DNA from: Marinicella litoralis
GTDB lineage: Bacteria; Pseudomonadota; Gammaproteobacteria; Xanthomonadales; Marinicellaceae
Reading direction: 5' to 3'
Length of the DNA stretch: 56,550 bases
Assembly (NCBI RefSeq): GCF_002591915.1
Contig: NZ_NIHB01000004.1
Coordinates: 22,678 to 79,227 of the forward strand
Positions 326 to 18,985 of this stretch are shown one piece after another. A model generated the notes under the pieces. The model was not told the origin of the DNA. It was given only the letters and a program-made list of their open reading frames with translations, and ran no database searches. Positions within the stretch are counted from its first letter, which is position 1, and each line of letters begins with the position of its first letter. The position numbers were made by a program, and so were the translations under genes.

Positions 326-1666
326 TTATTCAAAACCATCAGCAAAAATCAGATCGACAAAATTGGCATCACTGATCAGAACGACAGAATTTGACAATAC
401 GTAATACAAGTTGCCTTGTTCGTCTTCACCGAAACTCCGGATGTTGCCTGGGCGGTCTGACAATAGGCTGGCTTGATTCCATGTGCCATTGTCATTGACA
501 CTCCAAAAAATTTCACCGGTACAAAAATCGCCATAGATATAAACCCCCTGCCAGGTGGATTCTGGTCCACGGTAAGGAAAACCGCCTATGACCGAGCAGC
601 GACCAGAGCTGACATAATCAATGATGGGGTCAACAGCATTGGCCACGGTACAGGTTACACTGGGGTTGGCAATAAAGCCTTCGCGACACACCCAGCCATA
701 ATTTTCACCACCACTTGAGGTGGCTGGTTGGTAATTAACTTCTTCTCTTTCGAGCTGGCCCACATCGCCGATGTACAGATCACCCAGGGTACGATCAAAA
801 CCCCAACGGTAAGGATTTCTTAGGCCCCAGGCCCAAATTTCACCACAGTCATTGTTGCCATCACTGAATGGGTTGTCGGCTGGGATGCCGTAATTAACAC
901 CTTCACCGCAGGCATCACTGACATTAACACCAGGGTTGTCAACATCAATTCGCAACATGGCTCCAAGTAAGGCGCGCGAGTCGGCATTGCCTCCTTGAAT
1001 TAAAAAGTCATTATCAACTGGGCAAGATGTGCTGTTGCTGTCATTGGCAGGCAGGTCATCTGGATCGATGGTTTGTCCGCGTCGACACGGATCATCACCA
1101 TCGCCACCATCGCCCATGCCAATGTAGAGGTATCCGTCTGCAGGACTGAAGTGGATGTCGCCCCCGTTGTGGTTAGGGAAATCTTGATTGATACTGATGA
1201 TCTTGAGTCTGGAAGTGTCATCTGCAACGTCTGGATCGCCAGGACTGACAGAATACCTGGCGATGATGGTGTCGCCATTCAAATCAGTGTAATTGATGAA
1301 AAAATAGCCATTGACTGCATAATTGGGGTGGAAAGCCAGGCCCAAAAGTCCCCTTTCTCCACTGCCGTTGGTCAAGGCATCTATGTCTAAAAATGGCGTT
1401 GGCAGGGTGATGCCATTCTCAATGATTTTTATCAAACCGCCTTGTTCAACCACAAACAATCGATCGCTGCCATCACCTGCATTTCTGACTGCAACAGCAC
1501 TGCTAAAACCTGCTTGAATCGTGGTGAATTCAGGGGCGAATGGTGCTGCGGTTCCAGCCATTAAAGGACTGGACAACAGCATCAATAAGGCAACAATTGG
1601 CCTCAGTTTATAGGCACAGTTTTTGGCTGCGAATGGATGATGGATATTGTTTGTAGTTATTGTCAT
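326..1666 (-). CDS. Secreted PQQ-dependent sugar dehydrogenase-like protein (GSDH family)
   Basis: A 446-residue beta-propeller protein of the glucose/sorbosone dehydrogenase family, whose members oxidise sugars with PQQ. Residues 21-40 form a signal peptide with a long N-region. Family motifs in order: a D-x-L-T-N-G-S-G-E-R-G-L-L-G-L block (96-110), FPNHNGGDI (163-171, containing the family's active-site His), MGDGGDG (184-190), WGLRNPYRWGFD, GDVGQ...EEVN, NYGW and GGFPYRG. The C-terminus ends DLIFADGFE, a tail shared with three other secreted proteins here. It starts 10 bases after the upstream minus-strand gene stops, so the two are probably co-transcribed. True substrate and PQQ dependence cannot be told from sequence. 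Confidence 0.85.
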   Translation of the reverse strand: MTITTNNIHHPFAAKNCAYKLRPIVALLMLLSSPLMAGTAAPFAPEFTTIQAGFSSAVAVRNAGDGSDRLFVVEQGGLIKIIENGITLPTPFLDIDALTNGSGERGLLGLAFHPNYAVNGYFFINYTDLNGDTIIARYSVSPGDPDVADDTSRLKIISINQDFPNHNGGDIHFSPADGYLYIGMGDGGDGDDPCRRGQTIDPDDLPANDSNSTSCPVDNDFLIQGGNADSRALLGAMLRIDVDNPGVNVSDACGEGVNYGIPADNPFSDGNNDCGEIWAWGLRNPYRWGFDRTLGDLYIGDVGQLEREEVNYQPATSSGGENYGWVCREGFIANPSVTCTVANAVDPIIDYVSSGRCSVIGGFPYRGPESTWQGVYIYGDFCTGEIFWSVNDNGTWNQASLLSDRPGNIRSFGEDEQGNLYYVLSNSVVLISDANFVDLIFADGFE

Positions 1667-1676
1667 GTTTATTAGC

Positions 1677-2144
1677 TCACTTTATGCGTTTAACTTTGAC
1701 ACTTTTGTTGCCGTCGCCTCTTAACAGCCATGAACCCATCATTGCAGGTTCAATGGTCACCAAATGGCGGCCGTCTTTTTTTATAAAAATGGAACCAGAG
1801 GATATGCGCTTCCAAATTTGTCCATTGTCTAATTCATAATAAGTATCGCCTAATTTGTCATTGTAAGTTTTTTCTAATCTGGCTTTGATTTCACGTTTCT
1901 CAGAGACTTGTCTGCGCTGCTCAAAACCGGCGTTTCTTTGTCTGATTTCACGGTCAATTTCCGCTTGTTTGTTTTTAATCCAATCAGACAAGGCATTCAA
2001 CTCTTCAGCCGATAATTTATTCAGCCCGGTCAGTTGTTTTTCTTCATCTGTCATGACGCTTAAATCTGGAGATTTAGCCTGCGCCAAAGAAAACATTAAA
2101 ATCATCAATAACAAGGTCAGCTTTTTTATCATTTGTTTACTCAA
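1677..2144 (-). CDS. Small periplasmic protein of unknown function
   Basis: 155 residues. An N-terminal hydrophobic stretch (about 6-22) ends in AQA, a typical signal-peptidase I site. Then comes an L-x-x-L-S-A-E-E-L-N-A-L-S-D-W segment, a charged helical region rich in E, R and Q (60-95), and a C-terminal part that looks like a small beta barrel (Y-E-L-D-N-G-Q-I-W-K-R; K-K-D-G-R-H-L-V-T-I). Similar short proteins with an LDNGQxW motif are common in gammaproteobacteria without a known role. The upstream start at residue 1 was kept, but residue 5 is an alternative Met. It lies just upstream of the sugar dehydrogenase-like gene. Confidence 0.7.
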   Translation of the reverse strand: MSKQMIKKLTLLLMILMFSLAQAKSPDLSVMTDEEKQLTGLNKLSAEELNALSDWIKNKQAEIDREIRQRNAGFEQRRQVSEKREIKARLEKTYNDKLGDTYYELDNGQIWKRISSGSIFIKKDGRHLVTIEPAMMGSWLLRGDGNKSVKVKRIK

Positions 2145-2347
2145 TAATGGGAAGCTGACAAATATACAACAATATGGCTAAAATTTGGGTTGTAAAATGG
2201 TTGTTGAGTCACAAAAAAGTGGTTTTTTATGTTAATTAATGGCTGTTATAACAAACTTTTAACACCAGTTTTTAAAAAACAAGTAAAATTCGCATTAGAA
2301 AACCACAAAATTAAAAAAACGCAACTCAAATAATAGGTACCATAGTA

Positions 2348-4186
2348 ATGAATAAATCATATATTGTATTGGGACAATTCCTGATTACATTATTAACTTT
2401 AGCAACAGCTAACCAGTCAATGGCTTTGACTGTCTCTTTCAGTGATTCACAACCTTTGAATTTGTACGATGAAGTCCAATACCATTTATCTGTCAATGAA
2501 GTGGACTTCTTTGTTGGTGATCCAGTGATTTGTCATACTAAGTTGGGTTTGCCTGTCAGTGGATTGGCAGCTGTGGTAACCGATGCCAACAGTGGTCCAG
2601 GCACCATTTTACCCATCAGTGAAAGTATCCAATACGATGTGCCTAGTCAAACCATATTGGCCAATGTGAACAGTAAGGACGCCGCTTGTGTCACACCAAA
2701 TGGCAAATTATTTGCAGATGTCATATTCAGCTCCGATTTTGACAGTGTCACCGCATTTACAGTTGAATATGTCAACCTACCAGACTTGGTGGTTTTGGAT
2801 CAAACCCTCGACTACAACATCATAATACAAAACCTTTCAAATCAAGAATTGGTATTCGATGTACTTGAGTACGTTTCTGAAGTTTCAATTCAAAACACCG
2901 CTTATTTCAGTGGATTGAATGTCAGTTGGGATTGCGTCAATGAATTTTTACCTGATGTAGATTGCGGTAGTAGCATTGCTGATCGCTATGGGGCGAGAAG
3001 TGTCATTCTACAACCGGGTGAGTTTGCTGACATTTTGGTTTCAAGAACCGTATCAACACAATCTGTGTTGAATCAAACCATTGATATGATGACTGCAGTT
3101 TTTGTAAAAAATCAAGCTGGTGATTTCATTGATGTTAAATCCATCGATAAGCAATTGGAGGTGGTTGAAAATGAAGCCCCTCAGTTAAGTTGGATTAATA
3201 GCACTTTAAATACCTTTTTGGAAGATGACACAATTGGTCAAGTCTTGAGTTTCAGAATTGAAGATGGTTCAGGTGCTAATTTTTCTGCAGCGACTTTAGA
3301 GCAGGCCATCTTAAGTTATAACAACAAAGTTGAATTTTCAAACATCACAGTGCAAGAGGTTGTCTCGGGTGTTTATGATGTCAGTTTCACTGTCATGCCA
3401 CAAGCCGATAAGTTTACCGACTCACAAAACTCAGAGTTCATTTCTATTCAAGTCAGTGATATTTTTAATGTTTATTCGAACACATTGATTTTAGAAGTAG
3501 CCATCACACCGGTGAACGATGCGCCCAGTTTTGATGTCAGCTGTACCCATTTAATCCTGGATCCATCACCGTTGAACAATGGTTCAGATGTGATTTGTGC
3601 TTCACAAGTCGGCAATGCCAATACACAAAGAAGTGGGGTTTATACTTGGGATGACTTCCTTATCAATGTTTCACCGGGTCCCTATGAAAATCAATCAATC
3701 AGTTTTGAGCTTACCAATGTAACCGGTGATGCGATTATTGACGATTTGGTGATTGGCTCGAACATGAGTGACTTGTGGTTGCTTATGCAGGACGGTGCAT
3801 CAGGTACGGCTGTGATTAATTTACAGGCAACCGACAATGGCGATACCCTTAATAATGGTGAAAATCAATTTGAATTACCGACTGATATCACCATTGAGTT
3901 GCTGCCTGTGACCTACACCATCTCTGGGGTCGCCAATGACTTCCCTACCATAGATCCGGCTTCTGAAATAACTGTCAGATTATCAGTGGGTGGCGATGTG
4001 GTTGATTTAGAAGTGGATGCCAACAACGCCAACGATTTCATTTTTGGTTATCAGTTGGCTGACGGTGCCAGTTACACGGTTCAAATCATTGGTCAAACCT
4101 TGGCTAATTGCTCAATCACCAATGGTGCTTCAGGTACAATTTCAGGCAGCAATGTGACTGATTTAGTAATAGATTGTGGTTTATAA
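2348..4186 (+). CDS. Secreted protein with cadherin/Ig-like repeats
   Basis: 612 residues with a clear signal peptide (1-26, cut after NQSMA). Most of the chain is predicted beta sandwich. Two linker motifs typical of bacterial cadherin-like repeats are visible: V-E-N-E-A-P near residue 278 and I-T-P-V-N-D-A-P-S-F near 391. The last ~90 residues form a domain starting T-Y-T-I-S-G-V and ending with two spaced cysteines (N-C-S-I-T-N-G-A-S-G-T and V-I-D-C-G-L), a layout seen in many secreted proteobacterial proteins. No catalytic motif is visible. Unlike four other secreted proteins here, it lacks the GFE tail. A strong terminator follows. Confidence 0.75.
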   Translation: MNKSYIVLGQFLITLLTLATANQSMALTVSFSDSQPLNLYDEVQYHLSVNEVDFFVGDPVICHTKLGLPVSGLAAVVTDANSGPGTILPISESIQYDVPSQTILANVNSKDAACVTPNGKLFADVIFSSDFDSVTAFTVEYVNLPDLVVLDQTLDYNIIIQNLSNQELVFDVLEYVSEVSIQNTAYFSGLNVSWDCVNEFLPDVDCGSSIADRYGARSVILQPGEFADILVSRTVSTQSVLNQTIDMMTAVFVKNQAGDFIDVKSIDKQLEVVENEAPQLSWINSTLNTFLEDDTIGQVLSFRIEDGSGANFSAATLEQAILSYNNKVEFSNITVQEVVSGVYDVSFTVMPQADKFTDSQNSEFISIQVSDIFNVYSNTLILEVAITPVNDAPSFDVSCTHLILDPSPLNNGSDVICASQVGNANTQRSGVYTWDDFLINVSPGPYENQSISFELTNVTGDAIIDDLVIGSNMSDLWLLMQDGASGTAVINLQATDNGDTLNNGENQFELPTDITIELLPVTYTISGVANDFPTIDPASEITVRLSVGGDVVDLEVDANNANDFIFGYQLADGASYTVQIIGQTLANCSITNGASGTISGSNVTDLVIDCGL

Positions 4187-14471: not shown

Positions 14472-15830
14472 ATGGCTTCTGTGACTCAAAGTGTGTCACT
14501 GACAAAGCGGGTTTTACTGACCTCCAGCATTGCCTTATTGGCTGCATTAACTGGCATAGGCCTGGTGATGGAGCAAGCTTTCAAAGACAAAACCCTTCAT
14601 TTAGTCAAAGAACGCTTAGAAAGCTATGTGCTTGCCATCATATCCAATACCGAAGTACAGGGTGATGAGCTGATTTTTCCTGAATATTTTCCAACACCTA
14701 GAATGGACCAACCCGGTTCAGGCATGTATGCGCAGATGGTTGTAGGTAACCAAACCTGGCAATCTCCATCCGTTTTGGGTCAAGAGTTACCTGAAGTTAC
14801 CGCAGTGGGTGTAAATGAACGAATTTTCGACGCGCCCATAGAATTTCAACAAGAACGCTTGTTTCGCATGCGACAAGGCTTTTCTCTTGAAGCCGAGAAT
14901 GGTTCAATTGAATTGACTTTATCTGTCACTGAGCATGCAGGTAATTTTTATCGTGAATTGGCAGAATTTGAAGAAACCTTACTAACCTGGCTGATTGGCA
15001 TCAGTTCCATTCTGGTTTGTGTGCAATGGATCATCATGTACTGGGCCACCAAACCCCTGAAGCGATTGATGTCAGATTTACTGCGTTTAGAGAAAGGTGA
15101 TGAGCTGATATTTTCTGAGGACTATCCCAGTGAGTTAAGGGGATTAACCACCAGCTTAAACCGGTTGATTGTCAATGAAAGGAACAATTTATCCAGACAG
15201 AGAAGGACTTTGGGTGATTTGGCCCATTCATTGAAAACGCCCTTGGCGGTTATACATTCGGAACTGGAAAACGAAGAAATTGACAAGGATTTGCTGCAAC
15301 AACAAATCATGAATATGGATGAAATCGTAGCTTATCAACTCAAAAGGGCCGCTGTGGCTGGTCACCGCACCTTTGTGACGGGTGTGCCAGTTATTGATGT
15401 TTTGGATAAAATCATTAAAACATTAAAGAAAGTACACCCCAGCCGCAATATTCAGGTAAAAACCCAAATTGCACCTGGTGCTGAATTTTTTGGTGAGAAG
15501 GGCGACTTGATGGAAGTGTTAGGTAACCTGTTGGAAAATGCATTTAAATGGTGTGATCAACATGTCGATGTGTTGGTCAAAACCCTGTATATGGAAGGTC
15601 GCAGACGAACAGGCATTGTTATTGAAATTGGAGATGACGGCCCCGGCATTCCTGTAGGTAAACGCAATGAATTGCTGCAACGTGGAGTCAGGGGTGATGA
15701 ACAAGTTAAAGGGCATGGGATTGGCCTTTCCATAGTGACAGATATTGTCGAATCATATCAAGGAGAGTTAGAAATCAAGACCCATGAAACACTCAAAGGT
15801 GCTTGTTTCAAAGTAATCTTACCACCTTAA
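14472..15830 (+). CDS. Sensor histidine kinase (PhoQ-like)
   Basis: About 452 residues. Two membrane helices (about 10-32 and 168-190) flank a periplasmic domain. Then come a HAMP-like segment, the H-box L-G-D-L-A-H-S-L-K-T-P-L (His about 252), the N-box L-G-N-L-L-E-N-A-F-K-W, the G1 box I-G-D-D-G-P-G-I-P and the G2 box G-H-G-I-G-L-S. The S-L-K-T-P variant of the H-box and the lack of a loop Asn-rich insertion resemble PhoQ-type kinases. I chose the ATG at 14472. An in-frame TTG lies one codon upstream, directly after the regulator stop. It ends 5 bases before the chosen mazG start. Confidence 0.92.
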   Translation: MASVTQSVSLTKRVLLTSSIALLAALTGIGLVMEQAFKDKTLHLVKERLESYVLAIISNTEVQGDELIFPEYFPTPRMDQPGSGMYAQMVVGNQTWQSPSVLGQELPEVTAVGVNERIFDAPIEFQQERLFRMRQGFSLEAENGSIELTLSVTEHAGNFYRELAEFEETLLTWLIGISSILVCVQWIIMYWATKPLKRLMSDLLRLEKGDELIFSEDYPSELRGLTTSLNRLIVNERNNLSRQRRTLGDLAHSLKTPLAVIHSELENEEIDKDLLQQQIMNMDEIVAYQLKRAAVAGHRTFVTGVPVIDVLDKIIKTLKKVHPSRNIQVKTQIAPGAEFFGEKGDLMEVLGNLLENAFKWCDQHVDVLVKTLYMEGRRRTGIVIEIGDDGPGIPVGKRNELLQRGVRGDEQVKGHGIGLSIVTDIVESYQGELEIKTHETLKGACFKVILPP

Positions 15831-15835
15831 ATTTT

Positions 15836-16606
15836 ATGAAAAAATTACTAAAAATCATGCAACAATTGCGTGACCCACAGACGGGCTGCCCATGGGATGT
15901 TAAACAAAGTTTTCAGACCATCGCACCGTACACCATTGAAGAAGCCTATGAAGTGGCTGATGCCATTGAACAAAATGACATGCAAGGGCTGAAGTTAGAG
16001 TTGGGCGATTTGTTGTTTCAGGTTGTTTTTCACTCGCAAATGGCTCAAGAAGCCGGTTTGTTTAATTTCACTGATGTGGTTGATTCAGTTTCGGATAAAA
16101 TGATTGAGCGCCATCCCCATGTGTTTCAGACAGCAGGCGCTCAACTCACTGCAGAACAACAAACGTTGGCTTGGGAACAAGCCAAGAGTCAAGACAAGGC
16201 AAGTGTTGTGGATGGCATTGCTAAAAATTTACCAGAATTACTCAAGGCGGTAAAGTTGACCAGGTATGCCGCAGTCATCGGATTTGACTGGCCTGATGTG
16301 AGTCATGTCTTTGATAAATTAACCGAGGAAGTTGATGAATTAAAAGAAGCGATGGTTGCCGAGGACCAGTCACACATAGAAGAAGAGTTGGGGGATGTCT
16401 TATTTGTCATTGCTAACCTCGCAAGGCATTTACAGGTTGATCCATCCTCCGCATTGCGCAAAGCAAATATTAAATTTGAAAAAAGGTTTCGTAAAGTTGA
16501 AAAGCTGGCTAAGGAATTGCAGCCTAAAAAAGAAAGCTTTGACCTGGATATTCTGGACGAACTGTGGGACCAGGTCAAAGCAGAACTACAAAATCATGAT
16601 GATTGA
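15836..16606 (+). CDS. mazG: Nucleoside triphosphate pyrophosphohydrolase MazG
   Basis: 256 residues with two MazG domains, each with an E-E-x-x-E/E-x-x-D metal-binding helix pair: T-I-E-E-A-Y-E-V-A-D with L-E-L-G-D-L-L-F-Q, and E-E-V-D-E-L-K-E with E-E-L-G-D-V-L-F. The G-C-P-W-D motif near residue 20 is typical. It hydrolyses NTPs/dNTPs to monophosphates. The frame is open upstream to a TTG at 15803 inside the kinase gene, preceded by AAAGGT. The ATG at 15836 matches family N-termini, so I prefer it. A GT-loop hairpin begins at the stop codon. Confidence 0.93.
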   Translation: MKKLLKIMQQLRDPQTGCPWDVKQSFQTIAPYTIEEAYEVADAIEQNDMQGLKLELGDLLFQVVFHSQMAQEAGLFNFTDVVDSVSDKMIERHPHVFQTAGAQLTAEQQTLAWEQAKSQDKASVVDGIAKNLPELLKAVKLTRYAAVIGFDWPDVSHVFDKLTEEVDELKEAMVAEDQSHIEEELGDVLFVIANLARHLQVDPSSALRKANIKFEKRFRKVEKLAKELQPKKESFDLDILDELWDQVKAELQNHDD

Positions 16607-16654
16607 ACGGCACACCCTTTAAGTGTGTGTGCGTGTGTGTGAAAGGAATGCCGT
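16607..16654 (+). terminator. Hairpin with GT-repeat loop just after mazG
   Basis: Imperfect inverted repeat: ACGGCA (16607-16612) pairs with TGCCGT (16649-16654), and CCTTT (16616-16620) with AAAGG (16642-16646), separated by a small internal loop. The 21-base loop is almost pure alternating GT (16621-16641). It begins at the base after the mazG stop. It lacks a following T-run, so it is not a standard intrinsic terminator. A 3'-end stabiliser or binding site is equally possible. Confidence 0.6.
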
Positions 16655-16788: not shown

Positions 16789-16838
16789 CTGATATTTTTA
16801 TAAAGTGTGTGTGTAGTGTGTGTGTATAAAAATATCAG
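16789..16838 (-). terminator. Perfect 14-bp hairpin with GT/CA-repeat loop, 3' of the EGTG-repeat gene
   Basis: CTGATATTTTTATA (16789-16802) pairs perfectly with 16825-16838. The 22-base loop 16803-16824 is alternating GT on the plus strand, so CA in the minus-strand transcript. It lies 26 bases past the stop of the minus-strand EGTG-repeat gene. Its loop is nearly the same as that of the hairpin after mazG, while the stems are unrelated. Confidence 0.7.
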
Positions 16839-16864: not shown

Positions 16865-17422
16865 TTAATCCATGGTAATGAGCGCTGATGAGTCGCAGCT
16901 CATTAATTCACCATCCAGATAAATGGTCTCAAATTCTATGGTGATGGTGGCTTCTTCACTTTCCACCGTTCCTGTAGCGTAAGCGGTCGAGTCGCAATCG
17001 AGGATTACCGTTAAAATGGTTTCTGGAAGCGGTATTGGCAAACCGCCTGTTCCATCATCAGATGATTTTCTACCCGTACCATCATCAGAAGATTTACTGA
17101 TGTGTTGAGTGTTGTTGATGCCACTGTAAACCCCGTTTTCAACGAATCCTTCAATTTGTTGCACGGTGTTCGTGGCTGTATCATGTAACACGCCCTGATA
17201 GGTGTTGTCGTCTTTGTCATCACTGAATAAATACAATGAGCTACCAAATGATGTGCTACTGATCAGCAAACACATCAATATCAAAGTGGTTTTGATGCCA
17301 GTTCCTTCAGATTCTGATCTGAAGGAATGGCGGTTCGATTGAATGGTATTGGAAATTCCAGTGCCTTCAGATTCCGAAAAATGCTTTTTCATGGTGTTTG
17401 ATGTTTTCATGGTTGATCTCAT
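16865..17422 (-). CDS. Small secreted protein with four SxxEGTG-type repeats
   Basis: 185 residues, family not certain. Two copies of S-E-S-E-G-T-G-I (16-23 and 36-43) precede the only hydrophobic segment (about 45-60, likely signal peptide ending S-F-G-S). Two copies of K-S-S-D-D-G-T-G (110-117 and 119-126) follow it. Between them is a segment with Y-Q-G-V-L-H-D and I-E-G-F-V-E-N-G-V-Y-S-G. The C-terminal ~50 residues form beta-rich sequence with two cysteines (D-C-D-S-T and S-C-D-S-S). The N-terminal extension before the signal is unusual, and Met 11 is an alternative start that keeps both repeats. It follows the DUF6502-like gene by 22 bases. DUF6502 neighbours are often DUF5666-type proteins with GTG motifs, a resemblance recalled rather than checked. 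Confidence 0.7.
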   Translation of the reverse strand: MRSTMKTSNTMKKHFSESEGTGISNTIQSNRHSFRSESEGTGIKTTLILMCLLISSTSFGSSLYLFSDDKDDNTYQGVLHDTATNTVQQIEGFVENGVYSGINNTQHISKSSDDGTGRKSSDDGTGGLPIPLPETILTVILDCDSTAYATGTVESEEATITIEFETIYLDGELMSCDSSALITMD

Positions 17423-17444: not shown

Positions 17445-18281
17445 TTAATCTTCAAAATAAAAAATGCCCAGACCGACTGGTTTGTTTTTTGCCCTTGACT
17501 CTAAGGTTTCTAACTGACTTTCAATCTGATCAAACTCAGGTGTGATTATTTCGTGATAAATCTTTCGAATCATTTCATTGGCCCTTCTTTTGAACTCAGC
17601 TGCATGTTCCTGTTTTATTCGAATGGAATAGAGGTTGCGCTGAAAGTTAGGCTCATCATCACTGAAGATGTTGTGATGAATGGTGTTGATTATTCTTTTG
17701 ATGGATGCCGCGGCAATGTTTGACATTTCAATGTTAATACCTGAAGGCGGTGTATATGATTTATTGAGAAAATGAACTTTGTTATCAATAATCTCAACAC
17801 ATTTTGCTTTCAGTAGAGAGTCAAGAATAGGGCCATGGCTGATGTTTTTACCAAAACGTTGGCACAAGGTCTCAAATGACAGGCCTTTACCACTTCTTTT
17901 CAGAGGAATTGGATTGCCAGCTTCATCACAAAATGGTGGCATGTGTTTCCAATGTTCTAGAATATTGGCTTCGCGTGATCTGTTCTGTTCAATGTAATCA
18001 CTTTTTTCTTCTGAATTTTTAATGATTTTAGAAACTTCTCTGCGGTCCAATCCAGTTTGATAGGCAATGGATGAAATTTTGCCGCGACTGTTTTCTGAAG
18101 TTTCATCAATGTACCTTTCAGCTTCCTCAACAAAAAGTTCTCTGACTAAGTTTTGAAATGAATTGAATTCAACTTTCTGTTTCACCAATATTTTTATCAA
18201 TGGTCTCATGCAGGTTCGAATGAAACTCAGCCAATAAACATCAAATGACAGGTTTCGATTGTTTGTAACTTGTTGGTTCAT
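17445..18281 (-). CDS. DUF6502-like protein with HTH-type segment
   Basis: 278 residues. The N-terminal part has R-T-C-M-R-P-L-I-K-I-L-V-K, then F-V-E-E-A-E-R-Y-I and S-S-I-A-Y-Q-T-G-L-D-R-R-E-V-S-K-I (about 70-86), which reads as a winged or plain helix-turn-helix and fits the DUF6502 family pattern (SRIAxxTGLxRKxV). The middle has L-S-F-E-T-L-C-Q-R-F-G. The C-terminal ~90 residues are helical and charged. No membrane segment. Its start overlaps the EAL gene stop by 4 bases (ATGA), so the two are translationally coupled. A regulator controlling the downstream EGTG-repeat gene is an inference. Confidence 0.7.
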   Translation of the reverse strand: MNQQVTNNRNLSFDVYWLSFIRTCMRPLIKILVKQKVEFNSFQNLVRELFVEEAERYIDETSENSRGKISSIAYQTGLDRREVSKIIKNSEEKSDYIEQNRSREANILEHWKHMPPFCDEAGNPIPLKRSGKGLSFETLCQRFGKNISHGPILDSLLKAKCVEIIDNKVHFLNKSYTPPSGINIEMSNIAAASIKRIINTIHHNIFSDDEPNFQRNLYSIRIKQEHAAEFKRRANEMIRKIYHEIITPEFDQIESQLETLESRAKNKPVGLGIFYFED

Positions 18282-18985
18282 TGGTGATTTACTCCATCAA
18301 AATACCAGCCTTGAAAGTTATCAAAGCCTTGCTTCATTCCGGTCATGAGGTCTTGCTCGTTTTCGACACCTTCTAGAACTGAAATGATGTTCATCGATGC
18401 TGCAAACTTGGCCAATCCATTGGTGAAATTATTGTGACTGCTGTGTTTGATGTTTTGTGATGCCACCTTGATGACATTGATCAAACCCATTTGTAATAAT
18501 TCCCAATGCGCAAATCCTGATCCAAAATCGTCTAAAGCCAACCAGCCGCCTTTTTCTTTAAAGTGTTGTAAGACCTTAATGGCACTAGAGCACAAAGGGG
18601 GCATGGAATCTGTTTCAACAATTTCAATGCACAATTGACGGGGATTGATGATGTTGTAATCAATGAGTTGCCACAATAAGTCGCGAAACTGCGGGCTCAA
18701 TAAGCTGATTGGCATCAAATTAATACTTAAACGTTTGGGGTTGTGCGTCTCCAAAACAGACTCAATTTGCGAAAATATTTTGATGTCTAAATCTATTTTT
18801 TGTTGCACGCTTAAAGCTTTGAAAAATTGTTCTACGTTCCTGTGTCCCATTAAAGTTTGCGGCCTATACAGCATTTCAAGCCAATCCTGGTGATTGGCAT
18901 TGGCATCCACGATATCTTGAAACTGAAAGGTCAGTTTCTGATCGGTGGCGGATTTAAATGCTGCTAAATTCATAAACATGGTCAA
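18278..18985 (-). CDS. Stand-alone EAL domain protein (cyclic-di-GMP phosphodiesterase-like)
   Basis: 235 residues, a single EAL domain with no sensor part. The signature EAL is E-M-L (W-L-E-M-L-Y-R). Later motifs: I-N-L-M-P (Asn kept), I-E-I-V-E-T-D-S (Glu kept), L-A-L-D-D-F-G-S-G-F (both Asp kept), V-I-K-V-A (Lys kept, the usual following Asp replaced by Ala), L-E-G-V-E-N (Glu kept), F-Q-G-W-Y-F (Gln kept). Most metal and catalytic residues therefore remain, but the changes make activity uncertain. It may act as a c-di-GMP receptor. It is the first gene of the three-gene minus-strand operon. Confidence 0.85.
   Translation of the reverse strand: MTMFMNLAAFKSATDQKLTFQFQDIVDANANHQDWLEMLYRPQTLMGHRNVEQFFKALSVQQKIDLDIKIFSQIESVLETHNPKRLSINLMPISLLSPQFRDLLWQLIDYNIINPRQLCIEIVETDSMPPLCSSAIKVLQHFKEKGGWLALDDFGSGFAHWELLQMGLINVIKVASQNIKHSSHNNFTNGLAKFAASMNIISVLEGVENEQDLMTGMKQGFDNFQGWYFDGVNHQ

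Follow-up and report, generated by a model that had tools for sequence, protein, structure and literature searches.

The repeats encoded by the gene studied here are a lineage-specific amplification of a G-T-G (GTG) motif that occurs widely in the products of genes downstream of DUF6502. The linkage between GTG and DUF6502 is well supported, and among Marinicella species the divergence of the motif, here called the tag, tracks DUF6502 rather than the flanking genes or the core of the tagged protein itself. Tag peptides are alike within one protein and different between species, and most arrays are old at the DNA level, so DNA homogenisation alone is inadequate as an explanation. The window (the whole stretch of DNA that was analysed) comprises 56,550 nucleotides of Marinicella litoralis. 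We tentatively propose, at a probability somewhat short of even, that the tag is a recognition tag read by the DUF6502 protein. Reading would probably take place in the cytosol, before export or while it is under way, and would feed back on expression.

The repeat gene and its neighbours

The gene order on the minus strand is EAL, DUF6502, repeat gene (Table 1). The sequence-only reading had placed the repeat gene third in an operon with genes for a single-domain EAL protein and a DUF6502-like HTH protein, and the Pfam matches and the common strand bear out these neighbours. Its EAL member hints at a possible link to cyclic-di-GMP that would be confined to Marinicella. The convergent gene at 15803-16606 resembles mazG by eye; the MazG and S8 protease labels used here are presumptive, assigned from sequence outside the Pfam scans. 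Two TG-dinucleotide tracts (16620-16645 and 16803-16828) lie between the convergent gene and the repeat gene, and a similar tract seems to be present at a contig end of another Marinicella genome (G010, locus L063).

Table 1. Features of the cassette in the window, with positions counted from the first base of the window
Feature	Position	Strand	Basis or remark
Repeat protein, exported-looking, GTG tags on both sides of the signal segment	16865..17422	-	ORF; orthologues in 13/18 Marinicella genomes, window included
Pre-signal tag copy 1, SESEGTGI, residues 16-23	17354..17377	-	
Pre-signal tag copy 2, SESEGTGI, residues 36-43	17294..17317	-	
Signal segment, hydrophobic, about residues 44-60; signal peptidase I probably cleaves after SFG	17243..17293	-	hydrophobic core near residue 47
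Mature core ahead of second repeat set; predicted beta strands in 61-104	17102..17242	-	structure model
Mature tag copy 1, KSSDDGTG, residues 110-117	17072..17095	-	
Mature tag copy 2, KSSDDGTG, residues 119-126	17045..17068	-	
DUF6502 protein, HTH-like, candidate tag reader	17445..18281	-	PF20112 E 1.3e-27; covaries with tag
Single-domain EAL protein, first cassette gene in Marinicella	18278..18985	-	PF00563 E 1.8e-27; close orthologue in 12/18 genus genomes

Translation of the 185-residue repeat protein could start at Met1, Met5 or Met11, all of which are 5' of the first tag copy by eye. The hydrophobic segment, a putative export signal, sits between the two tag sets, and Ala precedes the mature start in the 9 aligned relatives, read by eye. 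The structure model is fair in the beta core only, with a block pLDDT of 79-88 for residues 61-100 and 61 for residues 101-110. No Pfam family matched the protein at up to E 10, so DUF5666 (PF18914) was not matched. With four GTG copies and a gene directly downstream of DUF6502, the protein is a probable member of the class of GTG-tagged DUF6502 partners, which is defined here by that motif and position together with an export signal near the tag.

Both tag pairs had been recognized in the sequence-only reading, together with exactly four codon differences per pair, all third-base and synonymous. The codon comparison agrees: TCG/TCA, GGC/GGA, GGA/GGC, and ATT/ATC in the SESEGTGI pair, and TCT/TCA, GGT/GGA, ACG/ACA, and GGT/GGC in the KSSDDGTG pair. 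In 8-residue units the first pair had a pS of 0.63 and a pN of 0; the mature pair had a pS of 0.68 and a pN of 0.09 in a register that is shifted by one residue and takes in the residue after GTG. A 23-base SESEGTGI pattern (TCN serines only) matched exactly at these two sites alone in the genome, with 2 further sites at 2 mismatches.

The DUF6502 protein scored 96.8 bits against a curated family cut-off of 27, over residues 21-278, and the 10 nearest homologues found were from M. meishanensis, M. sediminis, M. marina, and metagenome-assembled genomes of Marinicella, Lysobacterales, or gammaproteobacteria. Its AlphaFold model is poor (pLDDT 55, from an alignment of 11 sequences). The putative HTH is based on predicted helices and on two matches to HTH proteins that are not significant (E 0.04 and E 0.31); searching PDB sequences with the DUF6502 profile yielded nothing under E 0.04, and an NCBIfam search gave no meaningful match. 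The Pfam scan found the DUF6502 domain alone and no TPR domain, so a TPR fold could be present only below the level of sequence detection. No export signal was seen by eye. Among PADLOC defence profiles there was no match to the repeat protein, the EAL protein, or P0001, and the only match to the DUF6502 protein was KwaB (E 0.008 over 27 residues).

Divergence of the tag within the order

The 13 Marinicella genomes that contained the repeat protein were the same 13 that contained any DUF6502. In the five genomes without DUF6502 (G001, G002, G009, G012, and G015), neither the repeat protein nor a close orthologue of EAL was present; two of these five are less than 90% complete. The repeat protein of G013 was missed in the protein search and was located adjoining its DUF6502, the cassette of G008 lies at a contig end with its DUF6502 absent from the assembly, and the repeat gene of G010 is divided between two contig ends.

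Homologues lacking the motif, which the sequence-only reading had set against its own proposal, were looked for, and none of the 13 Marinicella homologues lacked it on either side (Table 2). That reading had also named conserved copy number and position as support for a functional motif. Copy number varies, from 1 to 4 before the signal segment and from 1 to 7 in the mature part, but the motif core and its position relative to the signal are kept. Residue -4 is S in both tag sets or A in both in all 13 species. On MazG trees this S/A type requires 4-5 changes, at least 2 of them on well-supported branches; a sign test of the S/A match has only 2 supported independent pairs, too few to reach significance.

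Table 2. Tag motifs of the repeat protein in Marinicella
Locus or genome	Pre-signal	Mature	Remark
Window and L064	SESEGTGI	SSDDGTG	L064 also has one SETEGTGI
L069 and L070	SETEGTGI	SVDDGTG	one SESEGTD in each
G010	SETEGTDI	SNSDGTG	
L071	SESDGTDL	SVSDGTG	
L066 and L067	AETEGTGI	ASDEGTG	
L065	AETEGTDI	ATDEGTG	
L073	AETEGTD	ATDEGTG	one mature copy intact, one decayed
L068	AETEGT[GD]I	ATENGTG	
L072 and L061	AES[ED]GTG	AVSDGSG	

Nei-Gojobori counts between tag copies of one protein were pooled over 12 Marinicella proteins (G010 was left out), giving a pS of 0.58 and a pN of 0.066 for the pre-signal copies and a pS of 0.50 and a pN of 0.035 for the mature copies. These final values exclude L094, which had contributed about half of the mature synonymous differences to the first pooled counts, and one chance unit of L073. 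They uphold the earlier claim of selection on the peptide and not recent DNA duplication, except in the mature arrays of L285, L292, and L293, where a pS of 0.11-0.28 includes recent duplication. The seven copies of ASDEGTGG in the mature part of L287 had 94 synonymous and 0 nonsynonymous differences, and L289 had 72 synonymous differences in the mature part, 23 before the signal, and no nonsynonymous differences in either.

The same layout was found in another family of the order, where one locus (L094) encodes six copies of IEKSGTGI, a signal segment, and 15 copies of VAGGGTG. A search with L094 gave some match in 61 of the 180 genomes of the order, many of them weak, and 25 loci were fetched (family f8, 21 loci; family f9, 4 loci). 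In 22 of these there were three to seven IE[KR]xG[TS]GI-type copies, a signal segment, and a mature array, with DUF6502 directly upstream; the remaining 3 were mature-array fragments without upstream sequence. Mature arrays reached 17 copies, and their pS was 0.41-0.72 in 17 of 24 and below 0.4 in 7. The pooled mature pN of 0.125 takes in misregistered units of L320, L332, and L336. In both families the pre-signal tag was nearly constant and the mature tag variable, which counts against the tag being read by DUF6502.

Recent tandem duplication, or functionless low-complexity drift, would account for the variable copy number and for the arrays that are recent at the DNA level, namely the 7 mature arrays with low pS and the three in Marinicella. 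This explanation leaves out the 17 older arrays, the pN that is well under pS in nearly every array, and the retention of the motif in every Marinicella homologue. It is refuted by pS and pN in most lineages, and we give it almost no credence.

Thirty-six multi-copy proteins outside the repeat clades were also compared. Their GTG codons differed from copy to copy as often as expected at random (0.62 vs. 0.62), whereas agreement at residue -2 within a protein was 0.69 vs. 0.23 permuted (0 of 2000 permutations). Third bases at the first GTG were near background (GGC 0.53/0.52 vs. 0.43, ACC 0.49 vs. 0.41). If the coding repeats were instead DNA or RNA sites for DUF6502 or another factor, the HTH-like character of DUF6502 would fit, as would an 11-bp inverted repeat with a 4-base loop that was seen by eye over pre-signal copy 2 (17302-17327). 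However, the third-base and codon data, together with the high synonymous divergence of most repeats, largely refute such a role for the nucleic acid, and we consider it very improbable.

Covariation was analyzed in 12 Marinicella taxa, with G008 left out of the DUF6502 column split and both Mantel sets and G010 left out of the core-controlled Mantel set. Of the 191 variable columns of DUF6502, 10 split exactly by the S/A type of the tag, a count reached by 4 of 924 relabelings; MazG had 1 such column of 132, and a partly truncated EAL set had 1 of 95. In partial Mantel tests, which on 11-12 related taxa overstate significance, DUF6502 distance and tag distance were correlated when MazG and EAL were controlled for (r 0.81, p 1e-4), and the corresponding values given the others were 0.03 for EAL and -0.15 for MazG. 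Without the outer clade (9 taxa) the r for DUF6502 was 0.88. When the protein's own core was added as a control (11 taxa) it stayed at 0.81, and that of the core given DUF6502 was -0.34. Part of the covariation comes from joint inheritance, as DUF6502 and the core have a common history that goes beyond that of the flanking genes (r 0.69). There was no overall correlation between pre-signal and mature motif distances (r 0.24; given MazG, p 0.28), which speaks against the recognition reading. Within DUF6502, windows across residues 221-280 tracked the tag best (0.62, 0.72) and the HTH region, residues 41-80, least (0.19). This hints that the C-terminal part may recognize the tag, with the reservation that variable regions carry more signal.

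There are up to three DUF6502 matches per Marinicella genome (L059, L060, and their Marinicella counterparts). One of the other pairs adjoins an S8-protease-like gene, and another often adjoins a divergent gene for an ITKSFTGGW protein. The partners in these paralogous pairs have AQGGTG (6 loci, all beside the S8-protease-like gene) or GQGGTG (10 loci), never both.

GTG motifs beside DUF6502 in the Proteobacteria

DUF6502 was found in 100 of the 370 genomes searched in the class and in 27 of the 396 searched in the phylum. The fetched loci contained 140 DUF6502 ORFs, of which 36 gave no downstream call and one was dropped as a duplicate, leaving 103 confident calls; the survey leaves out loci L029-L058 and L095-L124, mostly short copies of later-fetched loci. 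GTG was present in the first 120 residues of the downstream protein in 85 of the 103 and G[TS]G in 92, compared with a mean of 18.6 and a maximum of 30 for GTG in 500 shuffles; loci were counted as found, with shared ancestry still in the numbers. Only 12 of 359 other ORFs of the same loci had GTG, and 3 of 59 signal-like ORFs. Outside the class, GTG was present at 12 of 14 DUF6502 loci (hand count). The common form of the tag, by eye, is G-x-G-G-T-G just behind the lipobox.

The proteins with a DUF5666 domain allow a comparison within one family. Of those encoded downstream of DUF6502, 14 of 15 had GTG in the linker that precedes the domain, vs. 4 of 22 others (hand-sorted; Fisher p 6.7e-6), and the sole downstream miss (L228) has GRTG. 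Several DUF5666 loci were unscored at first (L240, L241, L295-L297, L299, L301, and L303-L307); ten of these, all but L240 and L241, were read later and none of the ten non-downstream proteins had GTG, giving 4 of 32 in total, a set that includes genomes without any DUF6502 match (G092, G129, and G187). When GSG was allowed, 8 of the 22 scored. Among the four exceptions, L226 is upstream of a DUF6502 without a called downstream partner, and in L227 and L294 there is just DGTGG or PGTGG within a Gly-rich stretch. The fourth, L308 (G067:C18:13000-17000), carries GSGTGIGGTG and is about 9 kb from a DUF6502 without a called downstream partner, for which it is a possible partner in trans. Nine motif-bearing partners that were picked as not DUF5666-like had no DUF5666 match in any; GTG was present in 8 and GSG in one.

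Seven of the 18 downstream proteins without GTG in the first 120 residues had GSG. These 18 include three with GTG further in only (L080, L091, and L081), two with degenerate forms (L075 and L078), two loci where DUF6502 is followed by other genes (L164 and L180), and L187, L186, and L200. At L078 the downstream partner has a degenerate IIGHGG, and a 103-residue exported-looking protein with VIGTGGSPSD-type repeats (two GTG, two GIG) is encoded directly upstream of DUF6502 (3056-3367, plus strand). L200 has two tandem DUF6502 genes (1256-3417, plus strand) and then a gene for a 197-residue exported-looking protein with GISVGD repeats in place of GTG, possibly a different tag.

In most lineages the tag is confined to the mature part, which counts against the recognition reading, and by eye it directly follows the lipobox or signal region. 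This position would suit a tag that acts after export as a structural, assembly, or surface-display element, for example a tether behind a lipid anchor or a segment of stacked repeats, with DUF6502 as the transcriptional regulator of the operon only. The long mature arrays and the GTG linkers, which look like flexible tethers, would suit it as well. Such a role leaves unexplained why three families also have copies ahead of the signal segment, why the tag covaries with DUF6502 even when the core of the protein is controlled for, and why GTG is rare in DUF5666 proteins not downstream of DUF6502. We regard it as unlikely, if worth keeping in view, and rank cytosolic recognition ahead of it because a soluble HTH-like protein meets an exported partner only before or during export.

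Recognition of the tag and comparison with known systems

The sequence-only reading had suggested a recognition or processing motif. Recognition fits the linkage and covariation with DUF6502; no evidence of processing was obtained. If the tag is read by DUF6502, the repeat gene would encode its tagged exported partner, and DUF6502 would recognize GTG in the N-terminal part, still unfolded, of the preprotein from the gene directly downstream. Tags lie in the long n-region of the putative signal peptide as well as in the mature part, so several alike copies would be exposed to the cytosol as long as the protein is not exported. Those of the n-region would remain on the cytosolic side even once the signal was cleaved, so that DUF6502 could sense how much of its partner is made or exported and might tune its transcription via the HTH. 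We infer that binding is direct, that it precedes export, and that it feeds back on expression. A broader version of this reading, which we think improbable, is a tag-and-reader code in the Proteobacteria: each DUF6502 would read its own GTG variant on one exported partner, paralogous pairs would be insulated within one cell, and in lineages with the tag on both sides of the signal peptide the tagged remnants left in the cytosol would count exported molecules.

RRNPP systems pair an HTH protein with a TPR peptide-binding domain and an adjacent exported, species-specific peptide precursor, and the HTH-like DUF6502 likewise adjoins an exported-looking protein with a species-specific tag. It would be conceivable that exported tag repeats, or the released n-region, are cut to peptides that re-enter the cytosol and bind DUF6502, and the directly following exported-looking precursor and the tandem peptides that covary with DUF6502 are consistent with this. 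Unlike RRNPP regulators, DUF6502 has no TPR domain by Pfam, the system is Gram-negative, and the partners are often large lipoproteins, several hundred residues long and with one or two motifs each, unlike propeptides. In addition, the GxGGTG core varies little over the loci seen and the import route is hypothetical, making peptide signalling quite unlikely.

Recognition before or during export has partial parallels. In FlgM/FliA-type feedback a regulator senses the export status of a secreted protein, as DUF6502 would, but the DUF6502 system has no sigma factor or type III export, and its tag and reader are unrelated. In tubulin autoregulation a cytosolic factor, TTC5, recognizes the nascent chain and controls its expression; DUF6502 would also read a nascent chain in the cytosol, but the TTC5 system is eukaryotic, acts by mRNA decay, and has no tandem tags. 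The extended signal peptide region (ESPR) of autotransporters is a long n-region before a Sec signal, like that of the window protein but different in sequence; the Pfam search up to E 10, which presumably includes an ESPR model, gave no ESPR match.

In the literature searched, no paper named DUF6502, and none was found that combined a GGTG motif with a lipoprotein or Marinicella with a tandem repeat; DUF5666 occurred in 4 papers, in one of them as a table row, and neither these searches nor broader ones, judged by title, turned up a description of the tag. The tag-DUF6502 system is new as far as this literature reaches; a paper elsewhere could exist. Pfam assigns a function to neither DUF6502 nor DUF5666, both of which are common in Proteobacteria, and a tag-reader link would give both families a testable function. 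If the link is true, a short linear motif would be read around export and would tie an HTH-like protein of the cytosol to a single exported partner, an unusual case among bacteria.

Pairs of DUF6502 (PF20112) and DUF5666, annotated as domains only, were seen at four annotated plasmid loci. They likewise consist of DUF6502 and then an exported-looking protein with GxGGTG near the N-terminus, but the window partner lacks DUF5666 and its amplified tags flank the signal segment on both sides. DUF6502 matches were present on 73 plasmid records, 66 of them from Rhizobium, and 43 of the records were typed as conjugative. All five of the plasmid loci that were opened, from Rhizobium, Pseudoroseomonas, Methylocystis, Azospirillum, and Microvirga, had one or two copies of GIGGTG or GLGGTG.
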